A DNA stretch of 45,169 bases, taken from assembly GCF_003703475.1 (NCBI RefSeq), contig NZ_RDQM01000017.1:1-45169 (forward strand), in the 5' to 3' direction. Below the pieces are notes generated by a model. The model was not told the origin of the DNA, made no database searches, and saw nothing but the letters and a program-made list of their open reading frames with translations. Origin of the DNA: Allofranklinella schreckenbergeri (GTDB lineage: Bacteria; Pseudomonadota; Gammaproteobacteria; Burkholderiales; Burkholderiaceae_C). Both the position numbers and the translations under genes were made by a program. Below are positions 2,588 through 38,777 of this stretch, one piece after another; position 1 is the stretch's first letter, and the number at the start of each line of letters is the position of its first letter.

Positions 2588-2666
2588 AATTACATATCAA
2601 TGTGAAATATATTTGAATGATATATTGCCAAAAAGTGGGTATTTTATTTCTTTTTGATGTGTAATT
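2588..2666 (+). repeat. AT-rich palindromic intergenic repeat, copy 1
   Basis: This 79-bp AT-rich element starts 17 bp after the receptor stop. Its ends pair imperfectly (AATTACATATCAA with TTGATGTGTAATT). The core TTGCCAAAA (2625-2633) reads on the plus strand. It is one of 11 related copies in this window and the only one immediately followed by a separate strong terminator. Confidence 0.8.
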
Positions 2667-2675
2667 AAAAACACG

Positions 2676-2712
2676 AAGAGGGCAAGCCACCATGGCTTGC
2701 CCTCTTTGTTGG
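2676..2712 (+). terminator. Hairpin terminator of the TonB-dependent receptor gene
   Basis: A perfect 14-bp stem (2676-2689 with 2693-2706) has a 3-nt loop and is followed by TGTTGG. The right arm ends in CTCTT and the left flank is AATTAAAAACACG, so the hairpin could work in either direction. It lies 105 bp past the receptor stop, just after repeat copy 1. Confidence 0.7.
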
Positions 2713-2749
2713 CGCCCTTTGTGGGCTGCGGCTGGCAGGAGTAGAGGGG

Positions 2750-2827
2750 TTTTACATTGGGGAAAATAGACTCTTTTGCTACCAAGCCGAAATGGGGCGA
2801 TTTCTTTGCTTATTGATCGATAAAAAA
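2750..2827 (+). repeat. AT-rich palindromic intergenic repeat, copy 2
   Basis: This is a diverged copy with the core AAGCCGAAATGGGGC on the plus strand, a right part reading GATTTCTTTGC, and an end at TTGATCGATAAAAAA. It lies about 35 bp downstream of the ybjQ stop codon, which is on the minus strand. The left arm is poorly conserved. Confidence 0.6.
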
Positions 2828-2861
2828 GCGCTTCTCTGCCGCGCCGACATCATGGGCGCGC

Positions 2862-3218
2862 TCAGAGCATGCGCACCGCCGTGCCGGAGACCGACACCAG
2901 CATCATGCCGTTGGTTTCGCCCAGCACCTCGTAGTCGAAATCGATGCCGACGATGCCGTTGGCGCCCAGTTTTTTGGCGGCCTCGATCATGTCGTCCAGC
3001 GCCGATTGGCGTGCGCCCGCCAAGGCGCGCTCGTAGCCGCCAGCGCGGCCGCCCACCACATCGCGCACGCTGGAGAACATGTCGCGAAACAGGTTGGCGC
3101 CGATGACGGCTTCACCGTTGACCAGTCCCAGAAACGTGCCCACCTGCTTGCCGCCCTGGCCTTCGGGCATGACGGTGGCGAGGAAAAAATCATCCGACGA
3201 TTTGCTGAACCAGCCCAT
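2862..3218 (-). CDS. YbjQ/UPF0145 family protein
   Basis: A 118-residue protein starting MGWFSKSSDDFFLATVMPEG, with AAGGAG about 9 bp before the ATG. The glycine-rich segment GLVNGEAVIGANLFRDMF and the later GANGIVGIDFDYEVLG are hallmarks of the YbjQ (DUF74) family, whose members are about 105 residues and form pentameric rings of unknown function. The reading frame is open further upstream, but the ribosome site and family length support this start. It lies 62 bp after dctM on the same strand and may be read through from the TRAP operon, although the link looks incidental. Confidence 0.88.
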   Translation of the reverse strand: MGWFSKSSDDFFLATVMPEGQGGKQVGTFLGLVNGEAVIGANLFRDMFSSVRDVVGGRAGGYERALAGARQSALDDMIEAAKKLGANGIVGIDFDYEVLGETNGMMLVSVSGTAVRML

Positions 3219-3280
3219 GAGGCAACTCCTTGCAAGGGTTTGAGTGATTGAAAAAAAGCGTGGCGCACGCACCGCCTGCG

Positions 3281-9039: not shown

Positions 9040-10818
9040 ATGACGACGCCACCCTCTTTTTTGCGCAGCCTGCCCGCGGGCGACGCCGCCTGGCTGATGG
9101 AACTGCCCGATCTGCCGCAGGCCTTGGCCTTGTTCGAGGCTGTGCAGGCTGCCCGCCAGAGCGCGCTCGCGCCAGACGCCACGCGCCCTGCCATGCCGCA
9201 TGCCGATGCGCTGCGCGCCATCCACACCCTGGTGCCTGCCGCACGCACGGTGCTGGTGGAGTTCGCCCCGCACGCCGCCAGCGCGCAACAAGTGCTGGCT
9301 GCCGTGCGCCACATTGCCCGGATAAGCGCCCAAATCAGTGCCCAGGCAATGCCAGGCGGGCAGGGCGGGGCGGGAGGGCAGGCCCGGCGCGTTGAAATCC
9401 CCGTGCATTACGAGGGCGAAGACCTTGAAGCCCTGGCTGCGCACCTGCGCATCAGCCGCGCCGAGCTGATCGAGCGCCACACCGGATGCGATTACCACGC
9501 CGCCTTTGCCGGTTTTGCGCCTGGCTTTGTCTATCTCAGCGGCGGCCATCCGTGTTTCACCCAGGTGCCCCGGCTGGCTACGCCACGCACACGCGTGCCC
9601 GCTGGCTCCGTCGCTTTGGCGGGCGATTTCAGCGCCGTGTACCCCAAGGACAGCCCCGGCGGCTGGCAACTCATCGGCACCACGCCCTTGCAGATGTGGG
9701 ACTTGCAGCGCGCCGAGCCCGCGCTGATGCAGCCGGGCTTTCGCGTGCGCTTTGTTGATCTGGCCCAGAGGCCGCGCCATATCAGCCTGCCAGCGGCTAC
9801 GGCCACTGCTTCCGCCCCCGCGCCCGTTTCCTCAGCCCAGGCTGCAACGCCCACTCAGGTTCAAGGCGAAAGCGCTGCCGCATCCCTGCACATCATGGCC
9901 CCCGGCCTGCAAACCCTGGTGCAAGACGGCGGCCGCCGTGGCATGACGGGCATGGGCGTCTCCGCCAGCGGCGCGCTCGATGGCGCGGCCATGCGTGCGG
10001 CCAACCGCTGCGTGGGCAACCCCAGCGACGCGCCCGTGCTGGAAAACACCCTGGGCCTGCTGCGCCTGCGCTGCCAGGGGCGGGCCGTGGCCGCCGTCAC
10101 CGGCGCTTGCACCGTGCTGCGCATCACCACCGCCAGCGGCGCACAACTGCACCCGGCCTTGTACGAAGCCTTTGCGCTGGACGATGGCGATGTGCTGGAG
10201 CTGGCCGCACCTACCGCCGGGCTGCGCTGCTACGTTGCTGTGCGAGGCGGCCTGGGCGTGCCCCCGGTGCTGGGCAGCGCCGCCACCGATACGCTCGCGG
10301 ATATTGGCCCTGCGCCCTTGGCGGCGGGCGATGTCTTGCCCGTGGGGCAGGCCATCGCCGCCGCTGCGTTGCGCCCTGTTACGGCCGATGCCGTGGCCGC
10401 TGAATGCGCCGCCCACCTGCCCCGACCGGGGCAGGAAGTGATGCTGGACGTATGCCTTGGCCCGCGTGACGATTGGTTCGCACCCCAGGCCCTGGCCTTG
10501 CTGACGCAACAGCGTTGGCAGGCCACGCCCCAATCCAACCGCGTCGGCATTCGCTTGCAAGGCCAAACGCCCCTGCCACGCGCCCAGGCGTATGCCAGCG
10601 CTGAGCTGCCCAGCGAGGGCACGCCCAGCGGCGCGCTGCAAGTGCCCGCCAGCGGCCAGCCCGTGCTGTTTCTGGCCGATCACCCTTTGACGGGCGGCTA
10701 TCCCGTCATCGCCGTGCTGGCGCGCCATCACCTGGATCTTGCCGCCCAAGTGCCTCCCGGCGCGTGGCTGCGGTTTCGCCCGCTGCCGTGCGGCAAGGGC
10801 GAGGCCGATCTCGCCTGA
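9040..10818 (+). CDS. pxpBC: 5-oxoprolinase subunits B and C, fused (KipI-KipA type)
   Basis: A single 592-residue protein joins PxpB and PxpC, which are separate in E. coli. The N-terminal half is KipI/allophanate hydrolase subunit 1-like (FAGFAPGFVYLSGGHP, then VALAGDFSAVYPKDSPGGWQ). An Ala/Pro/Gln-rich linker follows at about residues 250-285. The C-terminal half is KipA-like (PGLQTLVQDGGRRGMTGMG, then SASGALDGAAMRAANRCVGN, AELPSEGTPSGALQVP and ADHPLTGGYPVIAVLA). The ATG at 9040 comes 43 bp after the previous gene and has little ribosome site. With PxpA it forms the ATP-dependent 5-oxoprolinase. Confidence 0.92.
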   Translation: MTTPPSFLRSLPAGDAAWLMELPDLPQALALFEAVQAARQSALAPDATRPAMPHADALRAIHTLVPAARTVLVEFAPHAASAQQVLAAVRHIARISAQISAQAMPGGQGGAGGQARRVEIPVHYEGEDLEALAAHLRISRAELIERHTGCDYHAAFAGFAPGFVYLSGGHPCFTQVPRLATPRTRVPAGSVALAGDFSAVYPKDSPGGWQLIGTTPLQMWDLQRAEPALMQPGFRVRFVDLAQRPRHISLPAATATASAPAPVSSAQAATPTQVQGESAAASLHIMAPGLQTLVQDGGRRGMTGMGVSASGALDGAAMRAANRCVGNPSDAPVLENTLGLLRLRCQGRAVAAVTGACTVLRITTASGAQLHPALYEAFALDDGDVLELAAPTAGLRCYVAVRGGLGVPPVLGSAATDTLADIGPAPLAAGDVLPVGQAIAAAALRPVTADAVAAECAAHLPRPGQEVMLDVCLGPRDDWFAPQALALLTQQRWQATPQSNRVGIRLQGQTPLPRAQAYASAELPSEGTPSGALQVPASGQPVLFLADHPLTGGYPVIAVLARHHLDLAAQVPPGAWLRFRPLPCGKGEADLA

Positions 10819-10850
10819 CCTCACCAACTCTCCCACTCAAAGTCTTTTTC

Positions 10851-11102
10851 ATGATGACCAAAGTTTTGATTGCCAACCGGGGCGAAAACACCTGTGTTTC
10901 GTCAAATTGGCGTGATGCGCGCAGCGCATGCGGCGATCTCGCCCTTCCCAAGGCTGTTAGTTGAAAGCCCGTTTCCATGATTACCAAAGTTCTCATTGCC
11001 AATAGGGGCGAAAACACCTGTGTTTCACCAAATCGGCGTGATGCGCGCAGCGCATGCGGCGATCTCGCCCCTCCCAAGGCTGTTAGTTGAAAGCCCGTTT
11101 CC
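10851..11102 (+). repeat. Two tandem 126-bp units duplicating the start of the biotin carboxylase gene
   Basis: Units at 10851-10976 and 10977-11102 differ at about 9 of 126 positions by my count. Each begins with the first ~35 bp of the downstream gene (ATG..ACCAAAGTT..GCCAA..GGGGCGA). It then breaks into a palindromic insert and ends with CCCAAGGCTGTTAGTTGAAAGCCCGTTTCC. The true gene follows at 11103. Each insert has two small perfect hairpins (AAACAC/GTGTTT and ATGCGC/GCGCAT). Each also has CGGCGATCTCGCCC, the exact inverse of codons 11-15 of the real gene. Each unit would encode a ~38-residue dead-end peptide starting [12 protein letters not shown] or [12 protein letters not shown]. Confidence 0.9.
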
Positions 11103-12863
11103 ATGATTACCAAAGTTCTCATTGCCAATAGGGGCGAGATCGCCGTCCGCATTGCGCGCGCCTGCGCCGATTACGGCGTGGCCTCGGTGGCGGTGTATGC
11201 CGATGCCGACCGTGATGCCCTGCACGTGCGCATGGCCGATGAAGCCTGGGCGCTGGAGGGCGAGCGCGCCGCTGATACCTATTTGCGCATCGACAAGCTG
11301 CTGGACATCGCCCGCCGCAGCGGCGCCGATGCCGTGCATCCCGGCTACGGCTTTCTCTCCGAGCGCGCCGAATTCGCCCGCGCCGTGCAGCAGGCTGGCC
11401 TGGCCTGGATCGGACCCGATCCGGCCACCATCGAAGCCCTGGGCGACAAAGTCGCTGCCCGCAAAATCGCCCAACAAGCGGGCGCCCCCCTGGTGGCGGG
11501 CACGACCGATCCCGTGCAAAGCGCCGACGAAGCGCTGGCCTTTGCCCGCCAGCACGGCCTGCCCATTGCCATCAAGGCCGCTTTTGGCGGCGGCGGGCGC
11601 GGTCTGAAAGTCGCCTGGCAACTTGACGAAGTGGCCGAGCTGTACGAATCCGCCGTGCGCGAAGCCGCCGCCGCTTTTGGCCGGGGCGAGTGCTTTATCG
11701 AGCAGTTTCTGGATCGCCCGCGCCACATCGAAGCCCAGGTCATCGCCGACCGCCACGGCAACGTCCTCGTGCTGGGCACGCGCGACTGCTCCTTGCAGCG
11801 GCGCAACCAAAAGTTGGTGGAAGAAGCGCCCGCCCCCTTCCTCTCCGACGCGCAGCGCCAGCGCATCCACCAAGCCGCGCGCGCCATCTGCGTGCAGGCC
11901 GCCTACGTCGGCGCGGGCACGGTGGAATTCCTGCTCAGCCGCGACGGGCACATCTCCTTTCTGGAAGTCAACACCCGGCTGCAAGTCGAGCACCCCGTCA
12001 CCGAGGAAGTCTTCGGCATCGATTTGGTGCAAGAGCAATTGCGCGTGGCCGATGGCCTGCCGCTGTCGGTCACCGAAACGCCCGCGCCGCGTGGCCACAG
12101 CATCGAGTTCCGCCTCAATGCCGAAGACCCAGGGCGCGGCTACCTGCCCACGCCTGGGCGCATTACGCGCTTTGACATGCCCGCAGGCCCCGGCGTGCGC
12201 GTGGACAGCGGCGTGAGCGCCGACTCCCTCGTGCCCGGCAGCTTCGACTCGCTCATGGCCAAGCTCATCGTCACCGGCCGCACCCGCGCCCAGGCGCTGC
12301 AACGCGCGCGCCGCGCCCTGGCCGAATGCCACATTGAAGGCGTGGCCAGCGTCCTGCCTTTTCACCGCGCTTTGCTGGACGAGGGCGATTTCACCAACGC
12401 CGAGGCGCTGCGCGTGCACACCCGCTGGATCGAAACCGAATTTGCGCCGCGCGTTGCCATGGTCCCCCGGCCCGAACCCGCCAGCGCCCTGGCCTGGCAG
12501 CACACCTGGATCGAAATCGACGGCCAGCGCCGCCGCTTGGGCTTGCCTGCGCAATGGCTGGGGGCGTTGAGCGCGCCCGGTGCATGGGGGGCGCCAGGGG
12601 ACGCAGAGGCTGCGAGCGCCGCGCCGCCTGCACCCGCTGCGCAAGCCGACGCCAACGCCATCACCGCGCCGCTGACGGGCAGCTTATTGGCCTGGAAAGC
12701 CGAGCCAGGCCAGGCCGTCGAAGCCGGGCAAACCGTGGCGGTGATGGAAGCCATGAAGATGGAAGTTGCCATCCCCGCCCCCCGCGCGGGCCGCCTGCAT
12801 CCGCTGGTGGAGGCGGGCAGCGCGTTGCATGCAGGCGATGCGCTGGCGCGGCTGGAGGATTGA
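11103..12863 (+). CDS. Biotin carboxylase fused to a biotin carboxyl carrier domain
   Basis: This 586-residue protein has a full biotin carboxylase N-terminal part: [20 protein letters not shown], the ATP-grasp glycine loop [12 protein letters not shown], and [20 protein letters not shown] with the catalytic Glu and Arg. The biotinyl domain at the C-terminus carries EAMKMEV with the lysine that takes biotin. An Ala/Pro-rich linker lies near residue 500. It resembles alpha subunits of acyl-CoA carboxylases, but no carboxyltransferase gene is in view. It ends the pxp operon, as biotin-carboxylase genes often do near pxp/urea-amidolyase genes. Two tandem truncated copies of its own start lie directly upstream and may affect its expression. 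Confidence 0.92.
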
Positions 12864-12928
12864 ATACCTGCTGCGCCCCTGCGCAGCGTGCAGGAGGGTA
12901 GGGGCAAAGCAGGCGTCAATGTGCTTAT

Positions 12929-13007
12929 TTTTTCAAATCAAAAAGAAATAAAATACCTTTATTTCGGCATGATGATATTAAAATCAATTTTATTTTGATC
13001 GATAAAT
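12929..13007 (-). repeat. AT-rich palindromic intergenic repeat, copy 3
   Basis: The core reads on the minus strand (TTTCGGCATGATGAT on plus). The left end is TTTCAAATCAAAAAGAAATA and the right end is TTTTGATCGATAAA. It lies about 65 bp after the biotin carboxylase stop, between convergent genes. Confidence 0.8.
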
Positions 13008-13048
13008 AATAGAGGCGCAGGCGTGCGCCTGCCCCGCAAGCGCTGGCA

Positions 13049-13087
13049 GCAAAACACAACAAGCGCCACGGCTGAGGTGGCGCTTGT
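13049..13087 (-). terminator. Terminator of the acyl-CoA synthetase gene
   Basis: An 11-bp perfect stem ACAAGCGCCAC (13059-13069) pairs with 13077-13087 around a 7-nt loop, followed on the minus strand by TGTGTTTTG. It lies about 50 bp past the stop codon of the minus-strand synthetase gene. Confidence 0.7.
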
Positions 13088-13138
13088 CGGGTTCACGCAG
13101 CGTGCGTGCGAGGGAGTTTCAGAGCGTCTTACAGGCGC

Positions 13139-14698
13139 TTACAGATAGTCTTTGCGCAGGCGGCGCTTGAGCAGCTTGCCGCTGGGGTTCTTGGGCAGGC
13201 TGTCGGCAAAGACCACGCGCTTGGGCGCCTTGAAGTGCGCCATGTGGGCGTTGCAGAAGTCGATGACCTGCTGCTCGCTCAGCTCGGCGCCGTCCTTGCG
13301 CACCACCACGGCGGTGACAGCCTCCACCCACTTCGGGTCGGGCAGGCCGATCACGGCCACTTCGCTGACTTCGGGCATGCGGTAGATCATTTCCTCCACC
13401 TCGCGGCTGGCCACGTTTTCGCCGCCGGTCTTGATCATGTCCTTCTTGCGGTCAACGACGCTGATGTAGCCCTCCTCATCAATCGTGGCCAGATCGCCCG
13501 AGTGGAACCAGCCGCCTTCGAACGCGGCGGCGGTGCGCTCCTCATCCTTGAAGTAGCCCAGCATCAGGTGCGGCGAGCGGTGCACGATCTCGCCCACCTC
13601 GCCCACGGGCACGTCCTGCATGTCGTCATCGACCACGCGGGTTTCCACATTCAGCACCGGGCGGCCGCAGGAGCCGGGTTTGCGCAACTGGTCCTCAGGG
13701 CCGAGGATGGTGGCCAGCGGCGCGATTTCGGTCTGGCCGTACAGGTTCCACAGCCGCACATCGGGCAGGCGGCGCGCCATTTCCTTCATCACCTCCACCG
13801 GCATGATGGAAGCGCCGTAATAGCCCTTGGCCAGCTTGGACAGGTCGGTCTGGTCAAACAGCGGCGAGCGCAGCAGCGCAATCCACACCGTGGGCGGAGC
13901 GAAGAAGCTGGTGATGCCATGGCGCGCCATCATGGGCAGCAGGCTATCGGGCGTTGGCTTGGAGGTGATGATGTTGGTGCAGCCCATGTAAACGGCTGGG
14001 CCGAGGAACACATCCAACTGCGCGCAGTGGTACAGCGGCAGCGCGTGCAGCAGCACGTCATCCTGGGCAATGGCGGCGTTGTTCACGCAGCTCACGTATT
14101 GCCACAGCACGGCATCGTGCGTGAGCATGGCGCCCTTGGGGCTGGATTCGGTGCCGCTGGTGTAGACGATTTGCAGCAGCCCGTCGCTGGTGGGGCCTGC
14201 GTCCTCAGGCAGTGGGTCGGTGCAGGCGGCCAGCTCGTCCAGCGTGGTCATGCCGGCCACAGGCTCGCCCGGGTCTTCGGCGGGCAGCCAGAGGAAGTGT
14301 TCGACTTGCGTATCGAGCTTGGCGGCTGCCTGGGCCAGCTTGGCCATGTTGTTGTCGGTGGCCAGCCAGCGCGCTTCGGCATGGCGCAGGATATAGGCCA
14401 CCTCATCAGCGGTGAGCATGAAGTTGATCGGCACCAGCACCGCGCCCAGGCGCGCCAGCGCAAAGCGCAGCGCCACAAAGCCATGCGAGTTGCGTGCCAG
14501 CACCGCGACCGTGTCGCCCGTGGCCACGCCACGCTGCGCCAGCCCTGCGGCTATCCGGGTGACCAGCGCGTCAAACTCCGCGTAGCTCCAGCGCACATCG
14601 CCGCAGATCACCGCGGTTTTCTCAGGCAAGCGCAGTGCCGTGCGGCGCAAGATATCGGCAACGCTTTGGCGACGGACGATAGGGGGCAGGGTGGACAT
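13139..14698 (-). CDS. AMP-dependent acyl-CoA synthetase/ligase
   Basis: This 519-residue ANL-superfamily enzyme activates a carboxylic acid to the acyl-AMP and then the CoA thioester. Motifs in order are YTSGTESSPKGAMLTH (phosphate loop), LYGQTEIAP, WFHSGDLATIDEEGYI, DRKKDMIKTGGENV and PKNPSGKLLKRRLR with the C-terminal catalytic lysine. The start at 14698 has AAGGAGA in front, and the open frame upstream (to 14770) is not needed. It resembles medium/long-chain fatty-acyl-CoA synthetases, but the substrate cannot be told. It is a single-gene unit, convergent with the pxp operon. Confidence 0.92.
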   Translation of the reverse strand: MSTLPPIVRRQSVADILRRTALRLPEKTAVICGDVRWSYAEFDALVTRIAAGLAQRGVATGDTVAVLARNSHGFVALRFALARLGAVLVPINFMLTADEVAYILRHAEARWLATDNNMAKLAQAAAKLDTQVEHFLWLPAEDPGEPVAGMTTLDELAACTDPLPEDAGPTSDGLLQIVYTSGTESSPKGAMLTHDAVLWQYVSCVNNAAIAQDDVLLHALPLYHCAQLDVFLGPAVYMGCTNIITSKPTPDSLLPMMARHGITSFFAPPTVWIALLRSPLFDQTDLSKLAKGYYGASIMPVEVMKEMARRLPDVRLWNLYGQTEIAPLATILGPEDQLRKPGSCGRPVLNVETRVVDDDMQDVPVGEVGEIVHRSPHLMLGYFKDEERTAAAFEGGWFHSGDLATIDEEGYISVVDRKKDMIKTGGENVASREVEEMIYRMPEVSEVAVIGLPDPKWVEAVTAVVVRKDGAELSEQQVIDFCNAHMAHFKAPKRVVFADSLPKNPSGKLLKRRLRKDYL

Positions 14699-15117
14699 GG
14701 TTGCGATCTCCTTGGTTGGGGGTTGGCAGGCAATGTGCCCTGCGGGGGCATTTCTCTGCTCAACCTCCACTTATGCGTTGACGGGTTGGAGTCCCCATGC
14801 CATCAGCGCTTGGGGCGTTGGTTGTGCGAGGAGAGAAAAACGGTGCAGAGCCTGAGGATCAACGGTGCGCCGCGCCTGCCAGCGCTGCGCCCGTGCTTTG
14901 GATTATGGGAGAGCGACGCGGCGCAGGCCGCGCTCTTGCCGCCCAGCGCCAGCCAGGTTGCTTGGAAGGCAGAGCCGGCAACCTCAGGCCCTGAGATCCT
15001 TCCGCAAGCTCGCTGCGTTGCCACGCTTGCCAAGGCAGCCAGCCTTGGCAAGCGTGTCGCCTTGCGATCACACGGTTTTGGGGCCAGTGCGGGGGTGCGC
15101 AAAGTGCATCACACGCT
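14699..15117. other. 419-bp intergenic stretch without a recognisable gene
   Basis: Between the synthetase start and the ygfZ stop I find no credible gene on either strand. The open frames there are short or antisense continuations. The left ~70 bp carry the synthetase ribosome site and presumably its promoter. The right part holds a 15-bp perfect hairpin (15022-15056), and an IS-end-like sequence (15097-15121) runs into the ygfZ stop. Confidence 0.6.
15022..15056 (-). terminator. 15-bp perfect hairpin downstream of ygfZ
   Basis: CACGCTTGCCAAGGC (15022-15036) pairs perfectly with 15042-15056 around a 5-nt loop. It lies about 60 bp past the ygfZ stop. No T-run follows on either strand, so it is not a standard intrinsic terminator. 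It could stabilise the mRNA end or be a remnant of a mobile sequence. Confidence 0.5.
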
Positions 15118-16179
15118 CTAAATATCTTCCAGCAAAGGGTAGGGCACGGCGTCAAGGCGAAGGGCCAGGGCTTGCCCGCCGTGCAGCCAGTGCACCGGCT
15201 CTTGTGCATGGGCGATCTTGAGCGAGACGATGGCGGCAAACGGCGCAGGCTGCCCGGCGCCGGGCTGGCTTTGCCCAGGTTGGGGCTGTGCAGGCTGGGG
15301 TTGCCATGCGGCTTGCACCAGCACGCCGCAGGGCTGCTGCGGATCCGATGGGGTGAAGATTTCCGTGCCCGGCTCGGGCAGGTGCGTCGCCAGCCCTTGG
15401 GCCAGGTAGGCGCGGCGCTTGATTGCGCCCCGGAACTGGCTGCGCGCTACCACCTCCTGGCCGGGGTAGCAGCCTTTTTTGAAGTTCACGCCGCCGATGG
15501 ATTCGTAATTGAGCATTTGCGGCACGAACTGATCGACCACGCCCTGGCTGATGGTGGCGATGCCGGAGGCCGCCTCGGACCAGGCCCAAACGGCGGCGTC
15601 GGTATCGGGGGGGAGGGCTTGGGCGTCTGCTGCGGCGCTGATCCAAAGGGCACGTGCGCTCTGGCCAGCCGGGTAAAGGCCGATCAGCCAGGCCGCCCCG
15701 CTGGCGGTCTGATCCGTCGTGCCCGTTGCTGCGTCAGGCGCAGGCCCGGCCACGGCGGCGGCGCTGGCAACAGCTTGCCAGGGCTGCAAGGGCAGGGCGC
15801 TGGCGGCGCTGCCCGCCCAGATCGGCAGCGCCGCCGCCGTGGCGATGGCGTCGCCCATCAGCCCGCGCAGGCGCCATTGCGCGCTGGCGTCGCTGATGCG
15901 GACTTTGGCGCGCAGCACGTACATCGACAGGCGTTTGTGCACCGCCGCCAGCACGCTGCGGTGCGCCAGCAGCAGCACATCGCTGGCGCCGTAGCGCACG
16001 CCGATAAAGCTCGCCTGCATGCGCCCTTTGGGGCTGAGAAAGGCGGCCAGGCGTGCGGCGTCGTGCTTGAGCAAGGCGAAATCGTTGCTGAGCTGGCGGT
16101 GCAAGAAATCCAGCGCATCGGCGCCGCTGACGTGCAGGACGCCCAAATCGTCGATAGGGGTGATGGCGTTGAGTGACAT
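15118..16179 (-). CDS. ygfZ: YgfZ, folate-binding Fe-S cluster repair protein
   Basis: This 353-residue protein is related to the glycine-cleavage T protein and helps maintain some Fe-S enzymes using a folate. The signature KGCYPGQE, with its conserved Cys, follows NYESIGGVNF, and GAIKRRAYLAQGL comes after. The N-terminus MSLNAITPIDDLGVLHVSGA, then DALDFLHRQLSNDF, also fits the family. The start at 16179 is chosen by homology because there is no good ribosome site. The frame is open upstream to 16257. It is divergent from mltG. A stretch near residues 155-185 is Ala-rich and low in complexity. Confidence 0.92.
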   Translation of the reverse strand: MSLNAITPIDDLGVLHVSGADALDFLHRQLSNDFALLKHDAARLAAFLSPKGRMQASFIGVRYGASDVLLLAHRSVLAAVHKRLSMYVLRAKVRISDASAQWRLRGLMGDAIATAAALPIWAGSAASALPLQPWQAVASAAAVAGPAPDAATGTTDQTASGAAWLIGLYPAGQSARALWISAAADAQALPPDTDAAVWAWSEAASGIATISQGVVDQFVPQMLNYESIGGVNFKKGCYPGQEVVARSQFRGAIKRRAYLAQGLATHLPEPGTEIFTPSDPQQPCGVLVQAAWQPQPAQPQPGQSQPGAGQPAPFAAIVSLKIAHAQEPVHWLHGGQALALRLDAVPYPLLEDI

Positions 16180-16361
16180 GGGGGGAAGGCTTGGATGAAG
16201 CGGCGCGCGCCGCGCCGGGTGCGCTTTGAGCAGGCTTTTGCAGCGTGCAAAAAACAAGCGCCAGAACCGCGTTGGCGATGCCCGGCAAGGGGCGCTGGCG
16301 CAGGCGGGGGCAACAGGGGATTCGTGCTATCGTGCGCGCCTTTTGGCCACGGCGGCTGCCT

Positions 16362-17396
16362 ATGGCGCGCGCCGTTTTTACCAGAGGAATAGTCGTTTTG
16401 CTGCGCAGATTGTTGTTGCTCCTGTTGCTCGTGCTGGTATTGGCTGGCGCGGCGCTGGGCTATGGGTGGTGGTGGCGGATGCAACCGCTGGAGATTGCGC
16501 CATCGCCCGCCGAGGTGACGATTGCGCGCGGCGCTTCCGCCAAAACCGTGGCGCAGACGCTGGTGGCCGCAGGCGTGTTCGACGTGCCCGTGCAAGGGCT
16601 GTATGCCTGGCTGCGCCTTTCGGGCCAGGGCAGCCAGGTCAAGGCCGGTTATTACGAATTCGCATCCGGTGACACGCCCGCGCAGGTGATGCAGCGCCTG
16701 ATCAAAGGCGAGCAAAGCCTCAAATCCATCACCTTCGTCGAGGGCTGGACGTTCGCGCAAATGCGCCAGTTGCTCGCCCAGCAGCCGCTGGCGCACGAAA
16801 CCCGGGGCCTGAGCGATGCGCAGGTGATGGAAAAACTCGGCCGCCAGGGCGTGCACCCCGAGGGGCGCTTCTTCCCCGATACCTATTTGTATGCCAAGGG
16901 CAGCAGCGATTTGGCCGTGCTCAAACAATCGCTGGAGGCGATGGAGCGCATGCTCGAAGCCGCCTGGCAGCAGCGCGAGCGCAGCCTGCCGCTGAAAACG
17001 CCCGATGAGGCGCTGATCCTGGCCAGCATCGTGGAAAAAGAAACCGGCCGCGACAGCGACCGCCGCCGCATTGCGGGCGTATTCGTCAACCGCCTCAACA
17101 AAGGCATGCTGCTGCAAACCGATCCCACCGTCATCTACGGCCTGGGCCAGCAGTTCGATGGCCGCTTGCGCAAGCGCCACCTGCAAACCGATACGCCCTG
17201 GAACACCTACACCCGCGCCGGCCTGCCGCCCACGCCCATTGCCATGCCCGGGCGGGCCTCGCTGCTGGCGGCGGTGCAGCCGGAGAAAACCACGGCGTAC
17301 TACTTCGTGGCGCGCGGCGATGGCTCCAGCGAATTCAGCGAAACCCTGCAACAGCACAACCGCGCGGTAGATCGTTACATCAGGGGCAAACCATGA
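16362..17396 (+). CDS. mltG: Endolytic murein transglycosylase MltG (YceG-like)
   Basis: This inner-membrane enzyme cuts nascent glycan strands. A single N-terminal membrane helix ([20 protein letters not shown]) is followed by a LysM-like region and the YceG catalytic domain. The active-site Glu lies in [20 protein letters not shown], and DPTVIYGLG and [19 protein letters not shown] follow. The ATG at 16362 gives 344 residues but has no ribosome site. A TTG at 16398 preceded by AGAGGAAT would give 332 and is a real alternative. Its stop overlaps the tmk start (ATGA), so the two are coupled. Confidence 0.93.
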
Positions 17397-18112
17397 ACAT
17401 GGCAGCCAGGCAAACACCCGCAGCGGCGCGCCCGCGCGGTTGGTTCATCAGTGTGGAAGGCATCGACGGGGCAGGCAAATCCAGCCACATCGAAGCCATC
17501 GCCCAGGCCCTGCAAGCGCAAGGCCAGCGCGTTTGCCTCACGCGCGAGCCAGGCGGCACGCCCTTGGGCGAGCAATTGCGCGAGCTGCTGCTGCACCAGG
17601 ACATGGACGCCTGGGCCGAAACCCTGCTGGCCTTTGCCGCCCGCCGCCAGCACCTGCGCGAAGTCATCGCCCCCGCGCTGGCCGAAGGCGTTTGCGTGGT
17701 GTGCGATCGCTATACCGATGCCACCTACGCCTACCAGGGCAGCGGCCACGGCGTGCCGTGGGAGGCCATCGCCCAGCTTGAGCGCTGGGTGCAAAGCGGC
17801 TGGCCGACCGTGGGGGCAGGCGCAGCGACGGCAGCGGGGGATCGGCCAGAGGGCGCGCTGCTTGAGCCCGATTGCACGCTGTGGTTCGACGTGCCGCCCG
17901 AAGTTGCCGCCCAGCGTCTGCAACAGGCGCGCACGCCCGACCGCTTTGAAGGCCAGGCCCGCGCATTTTTCGAGCGCGTCGCCCAAGGCTATGCCCGCCG
18001 CGCCGCCCAGGCGCCCGCGCGCATCGTGCGCATCGACGCCCATGCCCCCTTGCCCCAAGTGCAAGAGCGGGTGCTGGCCGCCTTGGCCCAGCAGGGTATT
18101 TTGCGTGCCTGA
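17393..18112 (+). CDS. tmk: Thymidylate kinase
   Basis: This cytoplasmic kinase makes dTDP from dTMP and has 239 residues. It shows the P-loop [13 protein letters not shown], the DR motif in [32 protein letters not shown] and the lid segment [11 protein letters not shown] ~15-residue Gly/Ala-rich insert (near 140-155) lies just before [11 protein letters not shown] and is absent from most homologues. The start overlaps the mltG stop by 4 bp. Downstream, an AT-rich repeat separates it from holB, its usual partner in Gram-negative genomes. Confidence 0.95.
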
Positions 18113-18120
18113 AGCCTTTT

Positions 18121-18198
18121 TATTTCAAATCAAAAAGCAAAAATATCGCCTTGTTTCGGCATGATGGTATTGAAGTCAATTTTACTTTGATTGAAATA
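18121..18198 (-). repeat. AT-rich palindromic intergenic repeat, copy 4
   Basis: The 78-bp copy starts 8 bp after the tmk stop. The ends TATTTCAAATCAAA and TTTGATTGAAATA are near-perfect inverted repeats (one extra base in the left arm). The core TTTCGGCATGATGG reads on the minus strand. It splits the tmk-holB pair. Confidence 0.85.
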
Positions 18199-18354
18199 TC
18201 TCTTGTGCCCGGCCCGGGCCGGAAAAAGGCGCGAAGCGCTCGATGGAGCAGGCTCTGAAAGAGCCGAGCGGCCCTGTCCGGCCTTCTTTGCACGCCAGCG
18301 CAATGCCAGCAAGGCAGAATCGGCAGCCTTTTCACCCTCTCGCTCAAGCCCTGC

Positions 18355-19467: not shown

Positions 19468-19513
19468 GTGAGCGCCCCCGGCCTTTCCCACTTCTACCAA
19501 CACACCCAACACC

Positions 19514-19885
19514 ATGTCCGCCACCGAAGACGCCCCCAAAACCGCCGCGCGCCCCAGTGTCATCCAGCTCAACATCAAGGAAAAAGCGGCGCTGTACGCC
19601 TCGTACATCCCGCTGTTCAAAGAGGGCGGCATCTTCGTGCCCACCGAGCGCGATTACCAGATGGGCGACAGCATCTTCGTCATGCTGACGCTGCCCGACG
19701 ATCCCAAGAAATACGCCATTGCAGGCACCGTGGCCTGGATTACCCCTTCGGGCGCCTCGGGCGGGCGCGTGCGGGGCGTGGGCGTGCGCTTTCCGGCGGA
19801 CGACAAATCCTCCGAGCTGCGCACCAAGATTGAAAACCGCCTGGGCACCGCCCTGGGCTTAGACCGCCCCACCCACACGGTGTGA
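19514..19885 (+). CDS. PilZ-domain protein, type IV pilus type
   Basis: A 123-residue PilZ-family protein. Segments ALYASYIPLFKEGGIFVPTE, GDSIFVMLTLPDDPKKYAIA and GGRVRGVGVRFP match the PilZ protein linked to type IV pilus assembly. That protein usually lacks the full RxxxR/DxSxxG c-di-GMP motifs, and I do not see them here. It is encoded next to holB, its usual neighbour in pseudomonads and Burkholderiales. It ends before a strong terminator. Confidence 0.9.
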   Translation: MSATEDAPKTAARPSVIQLNIKEKAALYASYIPLFKEGGIFVPTERDYQMGDSIFVMLTLPDDPKKYAIAGTVAWITPSGASGGRVRGVGVRFPADDKSSELRTKIENRLGTALGLDRPTHTV

Positions 19886-19937
19886 CTTCCCCCTTCGCGC
19901 CGCTGCCCGCGCGCCTGCGTGGGCCATCCCTTCCCCC

Positions 19938-19970: not shown

Positions 19971-19978
19971 CGATCTCC

Positions 19979-21591: not shown

Positions 21592-21639
21592 TGCGTCGCC
21601 GCTGAGGCCCTGCGCGGTCGTGCGCAGCGCGGCCCATGT

Positions 21640-21687
21640 AAAAGCCCTTGCTGGCCCCGGTGTGGGCAGCAAGGGCTTTTTGTTTTT
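21640..21687 (+). terminator. Intrinsic terminator of the tatD-ankyrin operon
   Basis: AAAAGCCCTTGCTG (21640-21653) pairs with CAGCAAGGGCTTTT (21667-21680) around a 13-nt loop and is followed by TGTTTTTA. The T-tract runs directly into repeat copy 5. Confidence 0.88.
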
Positions 21688-21764
21688 ATCGATCAATAGG
21701 AAATAAAAACTGCTTGTTTCGTTATGATGGGTATAAATTGATTTTTCTTTTGGTTTGTTTTATA
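21683..21764 (-). repeat. AT-rich palindromic intergenic repeat, copy 5
   Basis: This is a more diverged copy with the core TTTCGTTATGATGG on plus (TTTCGGCATGATGG in copy 4). The left part is ATCGATCAATAGGAAATAAA and the right part is GATTTTTCTTTTGGTTTG. It lies between the terminators of two convergent genes. Confidence 0.65.
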
Positions 21765-21802
21765 AGGATTTTGCTCCAGCAGAATGCTCAGGAAAAGCCA
21801 AC

Positions 21803-25620: not shown

Positions 25621-25696
25621 TTTTACATTTCAAAATGAATTGAATTTGATTGCTAAATTGCCGAAAAAAGGAGGTTTTATTTCCTTTGATTGGTAT
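25621..25696 (+). repeat. AT-rich palindromic intergenic repeat, copy 6
   Basis: It begins at the base after the helicase stop codon. The core ATTGCCGAAAAAAGG reads on plus. The right arm TTTCCTTTGATTGG is close to copy 9. The left arm TTTCAAAATGAATTG has decayed. Confidence 0.8.
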
Positions 25697-25803
25697 ATTG
25701 GATGGCTTGGCAGTCGGCAGGCTTGCCAGGACTTGGCTCTAATGATGTCCCTCTCTCATTTATGATCGCGTTTTACGTTTTATCTTGTTGAGAGGACACC
25801 ACC

Positions 25804-27312: not shown

Positions 27313-27392
27313 TTTTATAAATCAAAAGAAATAAAATAACCATGTTTCGGCAATGTAGTAATCATTTCATTTTCACTTTGATTTGTATTTTT
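27311..27392 (-). repeat. AT-rich palindromic intergenic repeat, copy 7
   Basis: It overlaps the last two bases of the ATPase stop codon. The core is TTTCGGCAATG on plus (minus-oriented copy). The left part is AAATCAAAAGAAATAAAATA and the right part is TTCACTTTGATTTGTATTTT. It lies inside what should be one ATPase-permease operon. Confidence 0.82.
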
Positions 27393-28726: not shown

Positions 28727-28806
28727 GTTTCAATTCAAAAGAAATTAGCGTTTATATGAGAGTTGCCAAAATGGCAATGTTTTGTTTCTTTTGATTTATA
28801 TTTTTT
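28727..28806 (+). repeat. AT-rich palindromic intergenic repeat, copy 8
   Basis: This is one of the best-preserved copies. The outer arms TCAAAAGAAA (28735-28744) and TTTCTTTTGA (28785-28794) are perfectly complementary. The core TTGCCA-AAA-TGGCAA (28763-28777) is itself a perfect small palindrome. It lies between convergent genes, and its right end provides the stop codon of yqiA. Confidence 0.9.
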
Positions 28807-32435: not shown

Positions 32436-32515
32436 ATATTTCAATCAAAGGAAATAAGGCTTATTGTTTGAATTGCCGAAATGGGGTTATTTTCTTTCCT
32501 TTGATTGGTAATTTT
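32436..32515 (+). repeat. AT-rich palindromic intergenic repeat, copy 9
   Basis: This copy has the longest perfect arms: AATCAAAGGAAA (32443-32454) with TTTCCTTTGATT (32495-32506). The core TTGCCGAAATGGGG reads on plus. Compared with copies 8 and 11, both arms have changed together (AAAGGAA/TTCCTTT instead of AAAAGAA/TTCTTTT). It lies 30 bp after the yraN stop. Confidence 0.9.
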
Positions 32516-33167: not shown

Positions 33168-33249
33168 TGGTTTTCAAATCATTGAAAAAATGCTTTGAAT
33201 AGAGTTATGCCAAAATGGCATTATTTATTTTCTTTTGAATTGGAAATTC
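33168..33249 (+). repeat. AT-rich palindromic intergenic repeat, copy 10
   Basis: The core ATGCCA-AAA-TGGCAT (33207-33221) is a perfect small palindrome. Both flanking pairs differ from copy 8 (TTGCCA/TGGCAA) in a complementary way. The outer arms are TTTTCAAATCATTG and TTCTTTTGAATTGGAAA. It ends ~7 bp from the hflX stop. Confidence 0.85.
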
Positions 33250-35374: not shown

Positions 35375-35376
35375 GG

Positions 35377-35808
35377 ATGATGGAAAAGACACCCCCCCCT
35401 CAACGAGGGCCAGCAACCTGCCCCGTTTGCGGGCAGAAAGCCCTTGTACACGCCGTGCGTGATTTGCCCTATGCCTACAAGGGGCGTGAAACCGTGATTG
35501 CCGCTGTGCAAGCCGATTGGTGCGATGCCTGCGGGGAGTGCTTGAGCGGACCGGAAGAAACCCACCGCATCATGCAAGCCATGGCGCAGCTACAGCGCCA
35601 GGTCAACGCCGAGCAAGGCACGCCTGCCTTTATCACGCGGGTGCGCAGCAAGCTGGGGCTTTCACAGCGTAGTGCCGGCAAGCTGTTTGGCGGCGGCCCC
35701 AATGCCTTCAACCGTTACGAGAGCGGCCTGACGCAGCCGCCGCAAGCCCTGGTGCAGTTATTGGGACTGCTGGACCGGCGTCCGGAATTGCTGGACGAGT
35801 TGCGCTAA
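35377..35808 (+). CDS. mqsA: MqsA antitoxin
   Basis: This 143-residue antitoxin and DNA-binding repressor has an N-terminal zinc domain (CPVCGQKALVHAVRDLPYAY ... CDACGECLS, two Cys pairs) that binds MqsR. The C-terminal helix-turn-helix domain (FITRVRSKLGLSQRSAGKLF, then GGGPNAFNRYESGLTQPPQA) recognises the operator. Two ATG codons in tandem (35377, 35380) follow GTGAGG. The N-terminus is ~10 residues longer than in E. coli. A small GC stem with CCCTTTTTTG just past the stop may end transcription. Confidence 0.95.
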   Translation: MMEKTPPPQRGPATCPVCGQKALVHAVRDLPYAYKGRETVIAAVQADWCDACGECLSGPEETHRIMQAMAQLQRQVNAEQGTPAFITRVRSKLGLSQRSAGKLFGGGPNAFNRYESGLTQPPQALVQLLGLLDRRPELLDELR

Positions 35809-35919
35809 GCGCCCCTTTTTTGCACGCGCGCTTACTTATATTGCGGCAGGCGTGCCCTCCAATTTGGCAGCAGGGGCTGCTGTAGTACGGTACGCCGCTT
35901 GGGTTTTCAAGGATCAGCC

Positions 35920-38682
35920 ATGAACGATAAACAGCCATTGACCGCCGCGCCTGCGGCTTTTTCTGATTTGGATGCAGGGGCGGCGCCAGCGGAGTTGGCG
36001 CTGGTGGTGCTGGGCATGTCTTGCGCGTCGTGCGTGGGGCGGGTGCAGGCAGCGTTGAAAAAGCTCGATGGCGTGGCCGATGCGCAGGTGAATCTGGTCA
36101 CGGGGCGCGCGGTGGTCGTGCCTGCCCCTGGGCACAAGCTGGAGCGCGCGGCGTTGGTGGAGGCGGTGCAGCGTGCGGGCTACGAGGTGGAGCCGGAGGC
36201 GGCGCCTGGCGCATCGGCGGGGGTGGAGCTGGCGATTGCAGGCATGTCTTGCGCCTCTTGCGTGGGGCGGGTGCAGCGGGCCTTGCAGGCGGTGCCGGGC
36301 GTGGTGGAGGCCAGCGTCAACCTGGCCACGCAGCGCGCCAGTGTGCGCGGCAGCGCCAGTGCGGCCGATTTGGTGGCGGCGGTGGCGGCTGCGGGCTATG
36401 AGGCCCAGGCCATTGCGGCCGAGGATGTGGGCAGCGATTTCGAGCGCGCCCATGCCCGCGCGGAAGAAGAGCGCGCCCACCTCGCGCGCGAGTTGCGCTG
36501 GGCGCTGCTGCTGGCGCTGCCCGTGTTTGTGCTGGAGATGGGGGCGCACATGGTGCCGGGCATGCACCACTTCATCGCCCGCACCATCGGCACGCATACG
36601 AGCTGGCTGATCCAGTTCGCGCTGACCACGTTGGTGCTGCTGGGGCCGGGGCGGCGTTTTTATCGCCTGGGCATCCCGGCCTTGTTGCGCGGCGCGCCGG
36701 ACATGAATTCGCTGGTGGCCGTGGGCACGCTGGCCGCTTATGGCTATTCGCTGGTGGCCACGTTCGCGCCCGGCTGGCTGCCAGAGGGGACGGTCAATGT
36801 GTATTACGAGGCCGCCGCCGTCATCGTGGCGCTGATTTTGCTGGGGCGTTTGATGGAGGCGCGTGCCAAGGGCCGCACGTCCGAGGCCATCCGCCACTTG
36901 GTGGGCATGCAGGCCAAGGTCGCGCGCGTGCGCCGCCCCGGCTGGGCGCAGGCACAAGAAATCGACATCGCTCAGGTGCAGCCCGGCGATGTGATCGAGG
37001 TGCGCCCCGGCGAGCGCATCCCCGTCGATGGGCTGGTGGAGGAGGGCGAGAGCTATGTGGACGAATCCATGATCTCCGGCGAACCCGTGCCCGTGGCCAA
37101 AACCCCCGGCAGCCCGCTGGTGGGCGGCACCCTCAACCAACGCGGCGCGCTGGCCTACCGCGCCAGCGCCGTGGGCGCCGATACCGTGCTGGCGCACATC
37201 ATCCGCATGGTGCAGCAGGCCCAGGGCGCCAAGCTGCCCATCCAGGCCGTGGTGGACAAGGTGACGATGTGGTTCGTCCCCGCCGTGATGGCCGCCGCGG
37301 CGCTGACCTTTGCCGCCTGGCTGATCTGGGGGCCTGAGCCTGCGCTGGCCCTGGCCTTGGTCAACGCCGTGGCCGTGCTCATCATCGCCTGCCCCTGTGC
37401 CATGGGGCTGGCCACGCCCACCTCCATCATGGTGGGCACGGGCCGTGGCGCGGAGCTGGGCGTGCTGTTTCGCAAAGGCCAGGCCCTGCAAGCGCTGCAA
37501 AGCGTGGCCGTGGTGGCGGTGGATAAAACCGGCACGCTCACCCAAGGCCGCCCCACGCTGACGGACATGTACGCCGCCGAAGGCTTTGCCCGCGACGCCG
37601 TGCTGGCTGCCGTGGCCGCAGTGGAATCGCGCTCGGAGCACCCCATCGCCCGCGCCATCGTGCAGGCCGCGCAGGACGAAGGGCTGGAGCTGCCGCGCGT
37701 GCTGGCGTTTGAATCCATCACCGGCTATGGCGTGCAAGCCCTGGTTGCGCCTGCGCAAGCCGCCGAAGGCCAAGCGCCCACGCTCATCCACATCGGCGCC
37801 GACCGTTACATGCGCCAGCTTGGCATCGACATCACCCCCTTTGCCCAGCACGCCCAGCGCTTGGGCGAGGAGGGCAAAACCCCGCTTTACGCCGCCATTG
37901 GCATGCCTGGCCGTGAGCAAGCGGCAGGCATGGCGCAAAGCGAAATGGCCAGTTGCGGCGTGCAGGAGGCCACCGAAGAAACCACGCAAGGCACAGCGAG
38001 CGGCTTGACAGACCAGGCGGACTCCACCGATGGGCTGAAAGCTGACGCCTGCGCCAAGGCCGCACATCCCCACACAAACATCGCCGCATCGCCCGGCGGG
38101 CGGCTGGCCGCCATCCTGGCCGTGGCCGACCCCATCAAGCCCGACACCCCCGCCGCCATTGCCGCGCTGCACGCACTGGGCCTGAAAGTCGCCATGATTA
38201 CCGGCGACAACGCGCGCACCGCCCAGGCCATTGCGCGCCAGTTGGGCATTGACGAAGTCGTCGCCGAAGTGCTGCCCGGCGGCAAGGTCGACACCGTGCG
38301 CCAGTTGCGCAGCCAGCATGGCGCCATTGCCTTCGTGGGCGATGGCATCAACGACGCCCCCGCGCTGGCCGAGGCCGACGTGGGCCTGGCCATTGGCACC
38401 GGCGCCGACGTGGCGGTGGAGGCCGCCGACGTCGTGCTCATCTCCGGTAGCCTGCAAGGCGTGCCCCGCGCCATCGCCCTCTCGCGCGCCGTCATGCGCA
38501 ACATCCGCCAAAACCTCTTTTGGGCCTTTGCCTACAACACCGCCCTCATCCCCGTCGCCGCCGGGGCGCTGTACCCGCTGTGGGGCCTGCTGCTCTCGCC
38601 CATGTTCGCCGCCGGGGCCATGGCGCTGTCGAGCGTGTTTGTGCTGGGCAATGCCTTGCGGCTCAAGCGTTTCAAAGCCTAG
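35920..38682 (+). CDS. copA: Copper-exporting P-type ATPase (CopA)
   Basis: This 920-residue P1B-1 ATPase pumps Cu(I) out of the cytoplasm. It has two N-terminal metal-binding domains, each with GMSCASC (about residues 32 and 107), and eight membrane helices with the transport motif CPC ([15 protein letters not shown]). The phosphorylation loop is [12 protein letters not shown], the ATP-binding HP motif SEHPIARA and the hinge [16 protein letters not shown]. An unusual ~60-residue insert (codons at 37905-38095) lies between the N and P domains. It is rich in Gln, Ser, Thr and Ala with two Cys and two His. The ATG has AAGGA upstream. No clear CueR site was found. Confidence 0.95.
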
Positions 38683-38695
38683 GCTCCCAATCCCA

Positions 38696-38777
38696 ATTTT
38701 TTCATATCAAAAGAAAAATGATTTGATTTCTATCATGCCGAAACAAGGTAATTTTTATTCTTTTGATTGGTAATTGA
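38696..38777 (+). repeat. AT-rich palindromic intergenic repeat, copy 11
   Basis: The outer arms ATCAAAAGAA (38706-38715) and TTCTTTTGAT (38758-38767) are perfectly complementary. The core CATGCCGAAACAAGG reads on plus. It starts ~14 bp after the copA stop, between two plus-strand genes. Confidence 0.9.

Follow-up and report, generated by a model that had tools for sequence, protein, structure and literature searches.

AT-rich three-block repeats at gene ends of two Vandammella-group species, candidate DNA docking sites

Background

The stretch of Allofranklinella schreckenbergeri DNA analysed here (45,169 nt, hereafter the window) is GC-rich and contains short AT-rich blocks that recur beside stop codons. 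What are these blocks? A preliminary description of the window offered two options, a non-autonomous mobile element whose copies are tolerated where genes end, or a functional 3' element such as a terminator, an RNase site or an Hfq site. We propose, with a probability of about 0.5, that they represent an old dispersed repeat which may now serve as a DNA docking or wrapping site at gene ends, REP/BIME-like but differently built.

Results

Copies in the window

All 11 copies listed in the preliminary description were present at their places (Table 1) and could be aligned as one family, instead of the unrelated AT-rich spacers which it had allowed for. A sequence-only model (R1) trained on these copies scores each of them at 51-68 bits, and their GC content is 19-39% against 64.5% for the window. 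Up to E=1, R1 returned four extra matches in the window (6-13 bits), which represent true copies read on the other strand. Seven copies are on the + strand and four on the - strand. The statement that all of them lie near stop codons also holds: a stop was found within ~95 nt of each of the 11 copies (maximum 95 nt, copy 5), with genes called by a home-made ORF/codon-usage script, not by a standard gene finder.

Table 1. Element copies in the window, with R1 scores and gene context
Copy	Position	Strand	R1 (bits)	Context	Orthologue in sister species
1	2589..2666	+	55.8	22 nt past the stop of a TonB receptor gene; followed by a GC-rich terminator-like hairpin	
2	2754..2825	+	52.4	convergent gap shared with copy 1	
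3	12929..13006	-	59.2	behind a biotin carboxylase gene	yes
4	18121..18198	-	65.2	thymidylate kinase gene ends 11 nt before	yes
5	21684..21759	-	51.3	behind an ankyrin gene and a terminator-like hairpin	yes
6	25622..25698	+	59.2	begins at the stop codon of a helicase gene	yes
7	27313..27389	-	63.7	gap between ABC-transporter ATPase and permease genes	yes
8	28727..28803	+	52.4	behind an FtsX/MacB-like permease gene	yes
9	32437..32513	+	62.4		
10	33171..33247	+	52.8		
11	38699..38775	+	67.8	top-scoring match to the family model	

Family size and distribution

A family model was run on the genome of origin (G000) and on its relatives, as the preliminary description had suggested. The profile search gave 152 copies in 691 kb of G000 (24.5% of the genome), which extrapolates to ~620 copies genome-wide; the count of 11 is right for the window but is a small fraction of this extrapolated total. 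Copy density is similar in the sister species (G005, 80% complete), which belongs with G000 to the Vandammella group; each of the two seems to have several hundred copies. Training of the family model (e4) drew on copies of the two species, orthologues included, and a reversed-sequence control of 821 kb gave no match at E<0.01. Depending on the search, 150, 78 or 12 of the candidates in each genome were scored. With 12 scored in each of 399 family genomes, 396 had no match to the element and, besides the genome of origin, matches were found in two congeners only (1 and 4 copies); the three congener copies that were checked all lie within imported DNA. Among the genomes searched, only the two sister genomes carry many copies. 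AT-rich islands in G002 and G007 were considered as a hidden related family and rejected, these stretches having 54 and 57% GC and no family match.

Placement and orientation

In the G000 sample, convergent gaps hold 51 of the 152 copies against 25.5 expected by length, and divergent gaps 14 against 32.4; a copy is present in 45 of the 81 convergent gaps. No copy reaches 30 nt or more into a gene (0/152). Under looser gene calling, 3 of the 189 G000 and G005 copies fell within a called gene. In tandem gaps the median distance to the upstream stop is 16 nt, and the next start is nearer than the stop for 22 of 87 copies. The idea that copies never occupy a 5' promoter region is therefore correct as a tendency, given their depletion in divergent gaps, but not as a rule. 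Relative to tandem genes, 40 copies are in the same and 47 in the opposite orientation, indicating no preference. As a separate observation, copy spacing along one contig (C1) has a CV of 0.71 compared with 0.73-1.09 for random gene ends; this difference is marginal and was not used.

Architecture and constraint

The element is a block of constant length (~75 bp) composed of three blocks at constant spacing: a left TTWCAAATCAAARGGAAA motif, an asymmetric core (TGCCgAAA...GG) and an inverted right arm that carries the second, inverted TTWCAAATCAAARGGAAA motif. The arms form an imperfect inverted repeat of ~18 nt (register 72), and to this extent the element is palindromic, as the preliminary description had it; the copy as a whole is not a hairpin. 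Indeed, RNAalifold predicts a consensus structure with 0 pairs, and arm covariation is at most a trace (within-copy arm pairing is 0.603, a value reached by 9 of 1000 shuffles, versus 0.591 with arms swapped between copies).

Across 77 orthologous pairs between G000 and G005, positions with at least 1 bit of information differ in 4.4% of cases (89/2010), a value with a downward bias, since a pair could enter the comparison only if each member matched a model for which both had served as training data. Positions below 0.4 bit differ in 29.3% (604/2062), and the linker in 28.9% (311/1077) with zero deleted cells. Gaps per site amount to 0.005 within the element versus 0.05-0.09 in the flanks. 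These patterns suggest that the blocks and their spacing are now maintained by selection, a proposal that shares the even odds of the docking-site reading to which it belongs.

Excess divergence in and around copies

The free positions, at 29%, diverge about three times faster than neutral sites (8-10%), for which fourfold sites gave 9.95% (5733/57631) and intergenic DNA without the element 7.7-8.4%. For the flanks, 178 of 337 gaps were mapped and 9 were excluded for a length difference above 80 nt (2 with and 7 without the element). Non-coding flank divergence falls with distance (23.8, 17.0, 13.5, 13.0 and 9.3%); the excess outside the element dies away over 30-60 bp and extends into coding sequence: where an element is near, the final 15 coding bases ahead of it are 12.9% divergent, versus 6.9% in genes without one. 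Three copies in a third genome show the same pattern (9.1% and 11.0% versus 2.4-3.0% in flanks; 28% versus 8.6-11.9%). Motif strength and free-position divergence are not significantly correlated (rho 0.15, p 0.20). When the stronger copy of each pair was taken, rho was 0.23 (p 0.045), on which we do not rely. Gene conversion or copy replacement is not supported as a source of the divergence, the distribution between orthologues being unimodal and linkers being no closer within than between genomes.

Rhythm of the flanks

In the flanks, GC content oscillates with a 10.5-bp period in phase with the element. None of 1000 jittered sets matched the power of this rhythm on either side, and the phase is alike when the G000 copies are split into two halves, as it is in G005. 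The right-hand control is flat at 10.5 bp (0.020 versus 0.153); the left-hand control is uninformative, as the fixed stop codon produces broad-band power (0.141 at 10.5). To the right of position 112 significance is lost, 338 of 1000 sets reaching the power of the rhythm, and the mirror symmetry of the flank phasing is not significant either (reached by 129 of 500 null sets). HU/IHF-family matches number three each in G000, G005, G006, G008, G001 and G004, two in G003 and none in G009; an extra HU/IHF paralogue was thus discarded as the binder, G000 having as many as most relatives.

Mobility and history

Of 79 mappable G000 copies, 77 are scored as present also in the sister species, where the remaining 2 can be recognised by eye; one copy was lost to an insertion, and all others that could be mapped between the two species are shared. 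The search for empty orthologous sites, a check named in the preliminary description, yielded no clean case between G000 and G005, for each of which 79 copies were mapped, and none of the 77 orthologous pairs is inverted. Exact runs of at least 7 nt compatible with target duplication occur in 5 of 236 copies, as against 5.1 expected. An 8-9 nt target duplication suggested by a first scan (z 5.9) was dropped, neighbouring shifts showing a raised background and exact runs being at the level of chance; such a duplication could have been erased in copies that are old and whose flanks change fast. Solitary arms are not in excess (31 versus 26 in a control, over 24.5% of G000 and the retrieved part of G005), and no partner element was found in this sample. 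Even the closest paralogues among the sampled copies differ by 14%. Because the copies are shared, target duplications are absent and no near-identical copies occur, the element is, on the evidence of these genomes, not moving now. At the one orthologous site inspected, that of copy 4, the gap is ~50 bp and without the element in G006, G008 and G009. The mobile-element option thus survives in part: an amplification confined to this lineage is consistent with an origin by copying, but the comparison of the sister species shows no present mobility.

Terminators and RNA motifs

The view that the family has no known name stands: the window has no Rfam match at gathering, and no named family matching the element was found in the literature extracts consulted. 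At E<=0.5 over 12900-21800, a region containing 3 of the 11 copies, Rfam gave one match at the level of chance, far below the gathering score and outside the copies. Intrinsic terminators, predicted by a simple script on the retrieved G000 and G005 DNA, are overall at least as frequent beside the element as in element-free gaps. In convergent gaps shorter than 120 nt they occur in 1 of 21 with the element versus 12 of 25 without, and in those of 120-250 nt in 33 of 43 versus 7 of 13.

Discussion

From the observed family, its number in the sample, its placement without orientation preference, its blocks and fixed length, the divergence gradient and the 10.5-bp phasing, we infer protein binding, DNA wrapping, the causation of the mutations and a physiological job; as everywhere here, the inference is from sequence, nearly all of it from two species. 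In the ancestor that these two Vandammella-group species share, the family would have multiplied by copying, settled in gaps after genes, above all between converging genes, and then ceased to move. Each copy is now a candidate DNA-level docking site for a protein, or protein pair, that would bind the three blocks, and selection on the blocks and their spacing would keep it. The bound protein may bend or wrap the neighbouring DNA, which would account for the helix-phased GC rhythm, and the complex may be a mutation hotspot, which would account for unconstrained bases in and near the site changing about three times faster than neutral. The likely job would be that of REP/BIME, a topological or nucleoid anchor where the torsion of transcription accumulates. 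More tentatively, and at somewhat under even odds, ~600 putative protein docking sites of fixed geometry, specific to the lineage and spread over the genome at gene ends, may wrap DNA and also behave as mutation hotspots on a local scale. Each site would stay recognisable, while its free bases and its close surroundings, down to the last codons of the adjoining gene, would be rewritten faster than the remaining genome. If the docking reading is right, divergence at the gene ends of these species should not be taken as simply neutral, and hundreds of replicate sites would be available to test whether a bound protein or topoisomerase raises the local mutation rate in bacteria.

Among the alternatives, the copies might be fossils of a non-autonomous MITE with ~18-bp inverted ends, which spread in a single burst and then died, gene ends being simply harmless insertion sites. 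The inverted end motif, the restriction of copy-rich genomes to two sisters among those searched and the short element-free gap of three relatives at the inspected site agree with this; we nevertheless find it rather unlikely, since mere tolerance does not explain the fixed length, the blocks changing more slowly than neutral or the halo of neighbours changing faster, and target duplications, an excess of solitary arms (in the retrieved DNA of both species) and near-identical copies in the sample are missing. That the element works in the transcript, as a terminator, RNase or Hfq site, is highly improbable. Copies do lie near stop codons, and terminators are scarce in short convergent gaps with a copy, though there is little room there; but the lack of orientation preference, of RNA structure and of more than a trace of covariation, together with terminators co-occurring in longer gaps, leaves the original functional option unsupported in this form and led us to reject an RNA hairpin or motif. 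A functional element read as DNA is the better version of that option.

Two further explanations concern what acts at the site. The binder may be DNA gyrase, with the element as a strong site relieving positive supercoils downstream of genes; this is a special case of the docking reading, so that their odds overlap. A GC rhythm has been reported within 120 bp of gyrase cleavage (PMC12324340) and in a 130-bp motif, as two arms of 47 bp each (PMC12393610); the flank rhythm resembles these, and placement between converging genes would suit gyrase as well. We regard it as quite unlikely, considering that the six best offsets of the published core preference (-4G/-2A/+1G/+4C/+6T/+8C) all fall outside the element, that long specific blocks are unlike the weak preferences of gyrase, that flank phasing has no significant mirror symmetry, and that mutagenic gyrase cleavage here is a conjecture. 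A site-specific recombination or break site, at which a recombinase or nuclease would act on the core and repair would leave the mutation halo, is very doubtful. It would suit the divergence peaks right of the core (42-49% at positions 39, 43, 48 and 49, although linker position 18 also reaches 45%), the runs of at least three adjacent changes (32 versus 17.7 expected) and a transition:transversion ratio near 1:1 within 10 bp of the element; against it, no orthologous pair is inverted and the signal of gene conversion is absent. Docking by a protein that binds the three blocks remains our preferred reading.

Comparison with known systems

The element resembles MITEs in being short and repeated, with inverted ends (~18-nt arms) and no coding capacity, but differs by its constrained blocks and by the lack of target duplication and of empty sites between the sister species; no partner was found in the part of the two genomes sampled. 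Strong gyrase sites share the 10-11 bp periodic GC of the flanks, but the element has long specific blocks and lacks the core cleavage consensus. An integron attC site was dismissed on its consensus. The Beta-proteobacterial repeat element (BRE), described in Bordetella and Comamonadaceae as ~90 bp long and usually intergenic (PMC3110155), is similar in size, location and host range among related bacteria; however, Bordetella BREs average 69% GC (PMC3110155), against 19-39% for the window copies, and our element is unmatched in 396 of 399 family genomes. No match to the RAYT/Y1 transposase (PF01797) was found in G000 or in the 80% complete G005. REP/BIME are hairpin-forming palindromes linked to RAYT. 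REPs are reported as palindromes of 20-40 bp (PMC3733652), and gyrase, IHF and DNA polymerase I have been reported as binding proteins of REP/BIME (PMC1525189). In contrast to a short palindrome, the present element is ~75 bp long, AT-rich and three-block, without a predicted hairpin; like REP/BIME, it is dispersed in intergenic copies that are frequent at 3' ends and between convergent genes. If the docking reading is true, REP/BIME-like chromosome furniture would have arisen independently with another build.

Identification of the repeat family

The AT-rich blocks (n = 11) noted in a preliminary description of the window (64.5% GC over 45,169 bases) were all recovered in place and belong to one family rather than being unrelated spacers: once co-oriented, the copies align over ~80 columns and score 51-68 bits each with R1, a model derived from their sequences alone, the other R1 matches in the window up to E=1 being four on the opposite strand of true copies (13.2 bits at most). 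In the whole genome of Allofranklinella schreckenbergeri (G000; 2.82 Mb, 30 contigs), R1 gave at least 151 matches (150 of 1608 candidates scored), and an iterated profile found 152 copies at E<0.001 in 691,322 bases (24.5% of the genome, window included), which extrapolates to ~620 copies genome-wide. Infernal returned 150 rows at E<=1e-4 in the same bases, two of them being both strands of one place. The iterated profile also found 99 copies in 438,904 bases of the sister species G005, and reversed sequence (419 kb of G000 and 402 kb of G005) gave 0 matches. No name was found for the family: the window has no Rfam match at gathering, a lax Rfam search over three copies returned nothing on them, and no published description surfaced among the results listed by literature searches.

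Features located on the window and on related contigs
Feature	Sequence	Position	Strand	Remark
Direct repeat, 126 nt, two copies plus a partial third	window	10846-11144
Third occurrence of the first 47 nt of the direct repeat	window	11098-11144		start of biotin carboxylase gene (11103)
AMP-binding enzyme gene	window	13139-14770	-	most of it 91-93% identical to G006, G008 and G009; ~2 kb at this locus absent from the same place in G005
GC-rich repeat, ~112 nt	window	15009-15120		numerous copies (83-93% identity) in G005, G006, G008 and G009 among matches listed; no resemblance to the AT-rich element
Paired element copies	L135 (G006 contig)	10818-10980		~90 nt apart, same orientation, first GC-richer; pair present in G000 too
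Insertion replacing an element copy	C30 (G000 contig)	~101970-102830		~0.8 kb; IS, judged by eye

Architecture and position

The element profile has three conserved blocks, namely a left arm (TTWCAAATCAAARGGAAA), a core (TGCCgAAA, then GG) and, on the right, the left arm again in inverse orientation; 14 free positions, mostly A/T, separate the left block from the core. The palindrome described earlier thus holds as inverted repeats in sequence and fails as a stem. Since RNAalifold predicted no pair on the copies, mutual information was strongest between neighbouring positions, and the arms of a copy paired only marginally better with each other (0.603) than when swapped between copies (0.591; reached by 9 of 1000 shuffles), the arms look like two inverted putative binding sites.

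According to home-made gene calls, on which all placement counts rest, the 152 G000 copies divide among convergent, tandem and divergent gaps as 51, 87 and 14, where gap length predicts 25.5, 94 and 32.4, and none lies inside a called gene by 30 nt or more (3 of 189 in G000 and G005 under a looser definition). The element is present in 45 of the 81 convergent gaps of G000. Among tandem-gap copies, 64 are closer to the upstream stop, 22 to the next start and 1 is equidistant. The claim that copies never clearly occupy 5' regions stands as a bias in this larger sample, the divergent copies and those nearer a start being exceptions. The other earlier proposal, a functional 3' RNA element (terminator, RNase or Hfq site), is not borne out: relative to tandem genes, 40 copies have the same orientation and 47 the opposite one, no RNA pairs are predicted, and terminators are not displaced overall, intrinsic ones occurring in 48 of 79 convergent gaps with the element versus 23 of 47 without (fetched DNA of G000 and G005). 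Gaps shorter than 120 nt are the exception (1 of 21 with the element versus 12 of 25 without, both genomes).

Flank GC oscillates every 10.5 bp, in phase with the element. The signal exceeded all 1000 jittered sets at -70 to -8 and 79 to 141, was reached by 1 of 1000 at -100 to -41, and was not significant at 112 to 171 (338 of 1000); with non-coding bases alone, p was 0.010 and 0.023. On each side, phase agreed within 32 degrees among three sets, namely the G005 copies and the G000 copies split at random into two halves. In a control aligned on stops without element, the right side was flat (0.020); the left, at 0.141 for 10.5 bp and high at other periods too, was uninformative, because the shared stop codon yields power at every period. 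Mirror symmetry of the periodicity was not significant.

Divergence in and around the element

Between 77 orthologous G000-G005 pairs, free positions (<0.4 bit) differ by 29.3% (604/2062) and conserved positions (>=1 bit) by 4.4% (89/2010), the latter rate being partly built in as position classes derive from the same copies; this classing does not account for how high the free-position rate is in absolute terms. Single positions reach 49% (position 39, 38/77; position 43, 37/76), and position 18 has 35/77; neutral yardsticks are far lower, with a divergence of 9.95% at fourfold sites, 7.7-8.4% in intergenic DNA without element and 4.0-4.6% in coding DNA. The excess forms a halo: divergence in non-coding flanks steps down outward (23.8, 17.0, 13.5, 13.0%) and reaches 9.3% past 60 bp, and where the stop lies within 20 bp of the element, the last two 15-bp coding bins differ by 12.9% and 8.3% (42 genes), versus 6.9% and 5.6% in genes without element (185 genes). 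Insertions and deletions amount to 0.005 per site inside the element versus 0.093 just outside. The excess recurs with a third genome, the congener G006, where divergence from G000 is 9.1% and 11.0% for two copies of one tract (flanks 2.4-3.0%) and 28% for a third copy (flanks 8.6-11.9%). Copy exchange as the cause of divergence was not supported.

Conservation and taxonomic range

Mapping to the fetched G005 DNA, which lacks the counterpart of much of G000, succeeded for 79 of the 152 G000 copies and not for the other 73; 77 of the 79 score as shared, and the remaining 2 have weaker homologues visible in the alignment. Conversely, 78 of 79 mapped G005 copies are common to G000, the last being replaced there by an insertion (see table); no clean empty orthologous site was seen between the two genomes among the mapped copies. 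No inversion occurs among the 77 pairs, mean paralogue divergence is 36% (closest sampled pair 14%), target duplication does not exceed chance, and solitary arms are not in excess (31 versus 26 in the control). The family is therefore old, and the mobile element suggested in the preliminary description shows no sign of present movement. A dead MITE may be the origin of the element and would fit its present state less well.

With R1, at least 78 scored candidates each were found in G000 and G005 among 60 genomes (own genome included), two copies in G006, one each in the congeners G008 and G009, and none in the other 55. Among 399 family genomes, with 12 candidates scored in each, a 150-copy model (R2) matched three, all of one genus: G000, G006 (4) and G008 (1). 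In the GTDB genome collection, a search that possibly left out own-genome records gave 28 stretches with a specific pattern, of which a single MAG (Comamonadaceae bacterium S17M_Sa_44_sub) holds 27 and Vandammella animalimorsus NML 00-0135 the remaining one; viral contigs gave no pattern match. Two congeners have much lower GC (G002 54%, G007 57%, fetched stretches) than the other sampled ones (63-69%).

Three G006 copies most likely arrived in imported DNA, since their two host regions share 97% and 88% identity with G000 DNA, against 64-83% for most of the remaining G006 hits listed for the window (one further tract, 93%); among the copies of G006 (contig C12 included), G008 and G009, this tracing covers those three. 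Separately, the AMP-binding gene locus suggests that DNA recombined or was transferred between congeneric species, as the identity of most of the gene exceeds the 64-83% of most other listed matches in G006, G008 and G009, and ~2 kb here is absent at this place in G005.

Proposed function and relation to known repeats

The conserved blocks, their fixed spacing, the absence of strand preference, the helix-phased flanks and the placement in convergent gaps are consistent with a site where a bending or wrapping protein docks on DNA. Repair or replication obstructed at such a tightly bound protein could produce the mutation halo; breaks at the element would be an alternative source. In yeast, substitution is reportedly raised around bound proteins.

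Gyrases reportedly favour GC with a 10-11 bp periodicity up to 120 bp from their cleavage sites (PMC12324340), in a motif that spans 130 bp and has two 47-bp arms, both periodic (PMC12393610). However, all six top-scoring offsets for the core preference of gyrase fall outside the element, and the flank periodicity lacks significant mirror symmetry. BRE, the only published repeat of related bacteria to come up among the literature results listed, is GC-rich (PMC3110155), whereas the element is AT-rich, and the two were judged different. A REP identity was ruled out on the features tested, with no hairpin and no match to a Y1-transposase in G000. REP/BIME repeats, which are reported to bind gyrase, IHF and Pol I (PMC1525189), nevertheless resemble the element in occupying the same kind of place in other bacteria.
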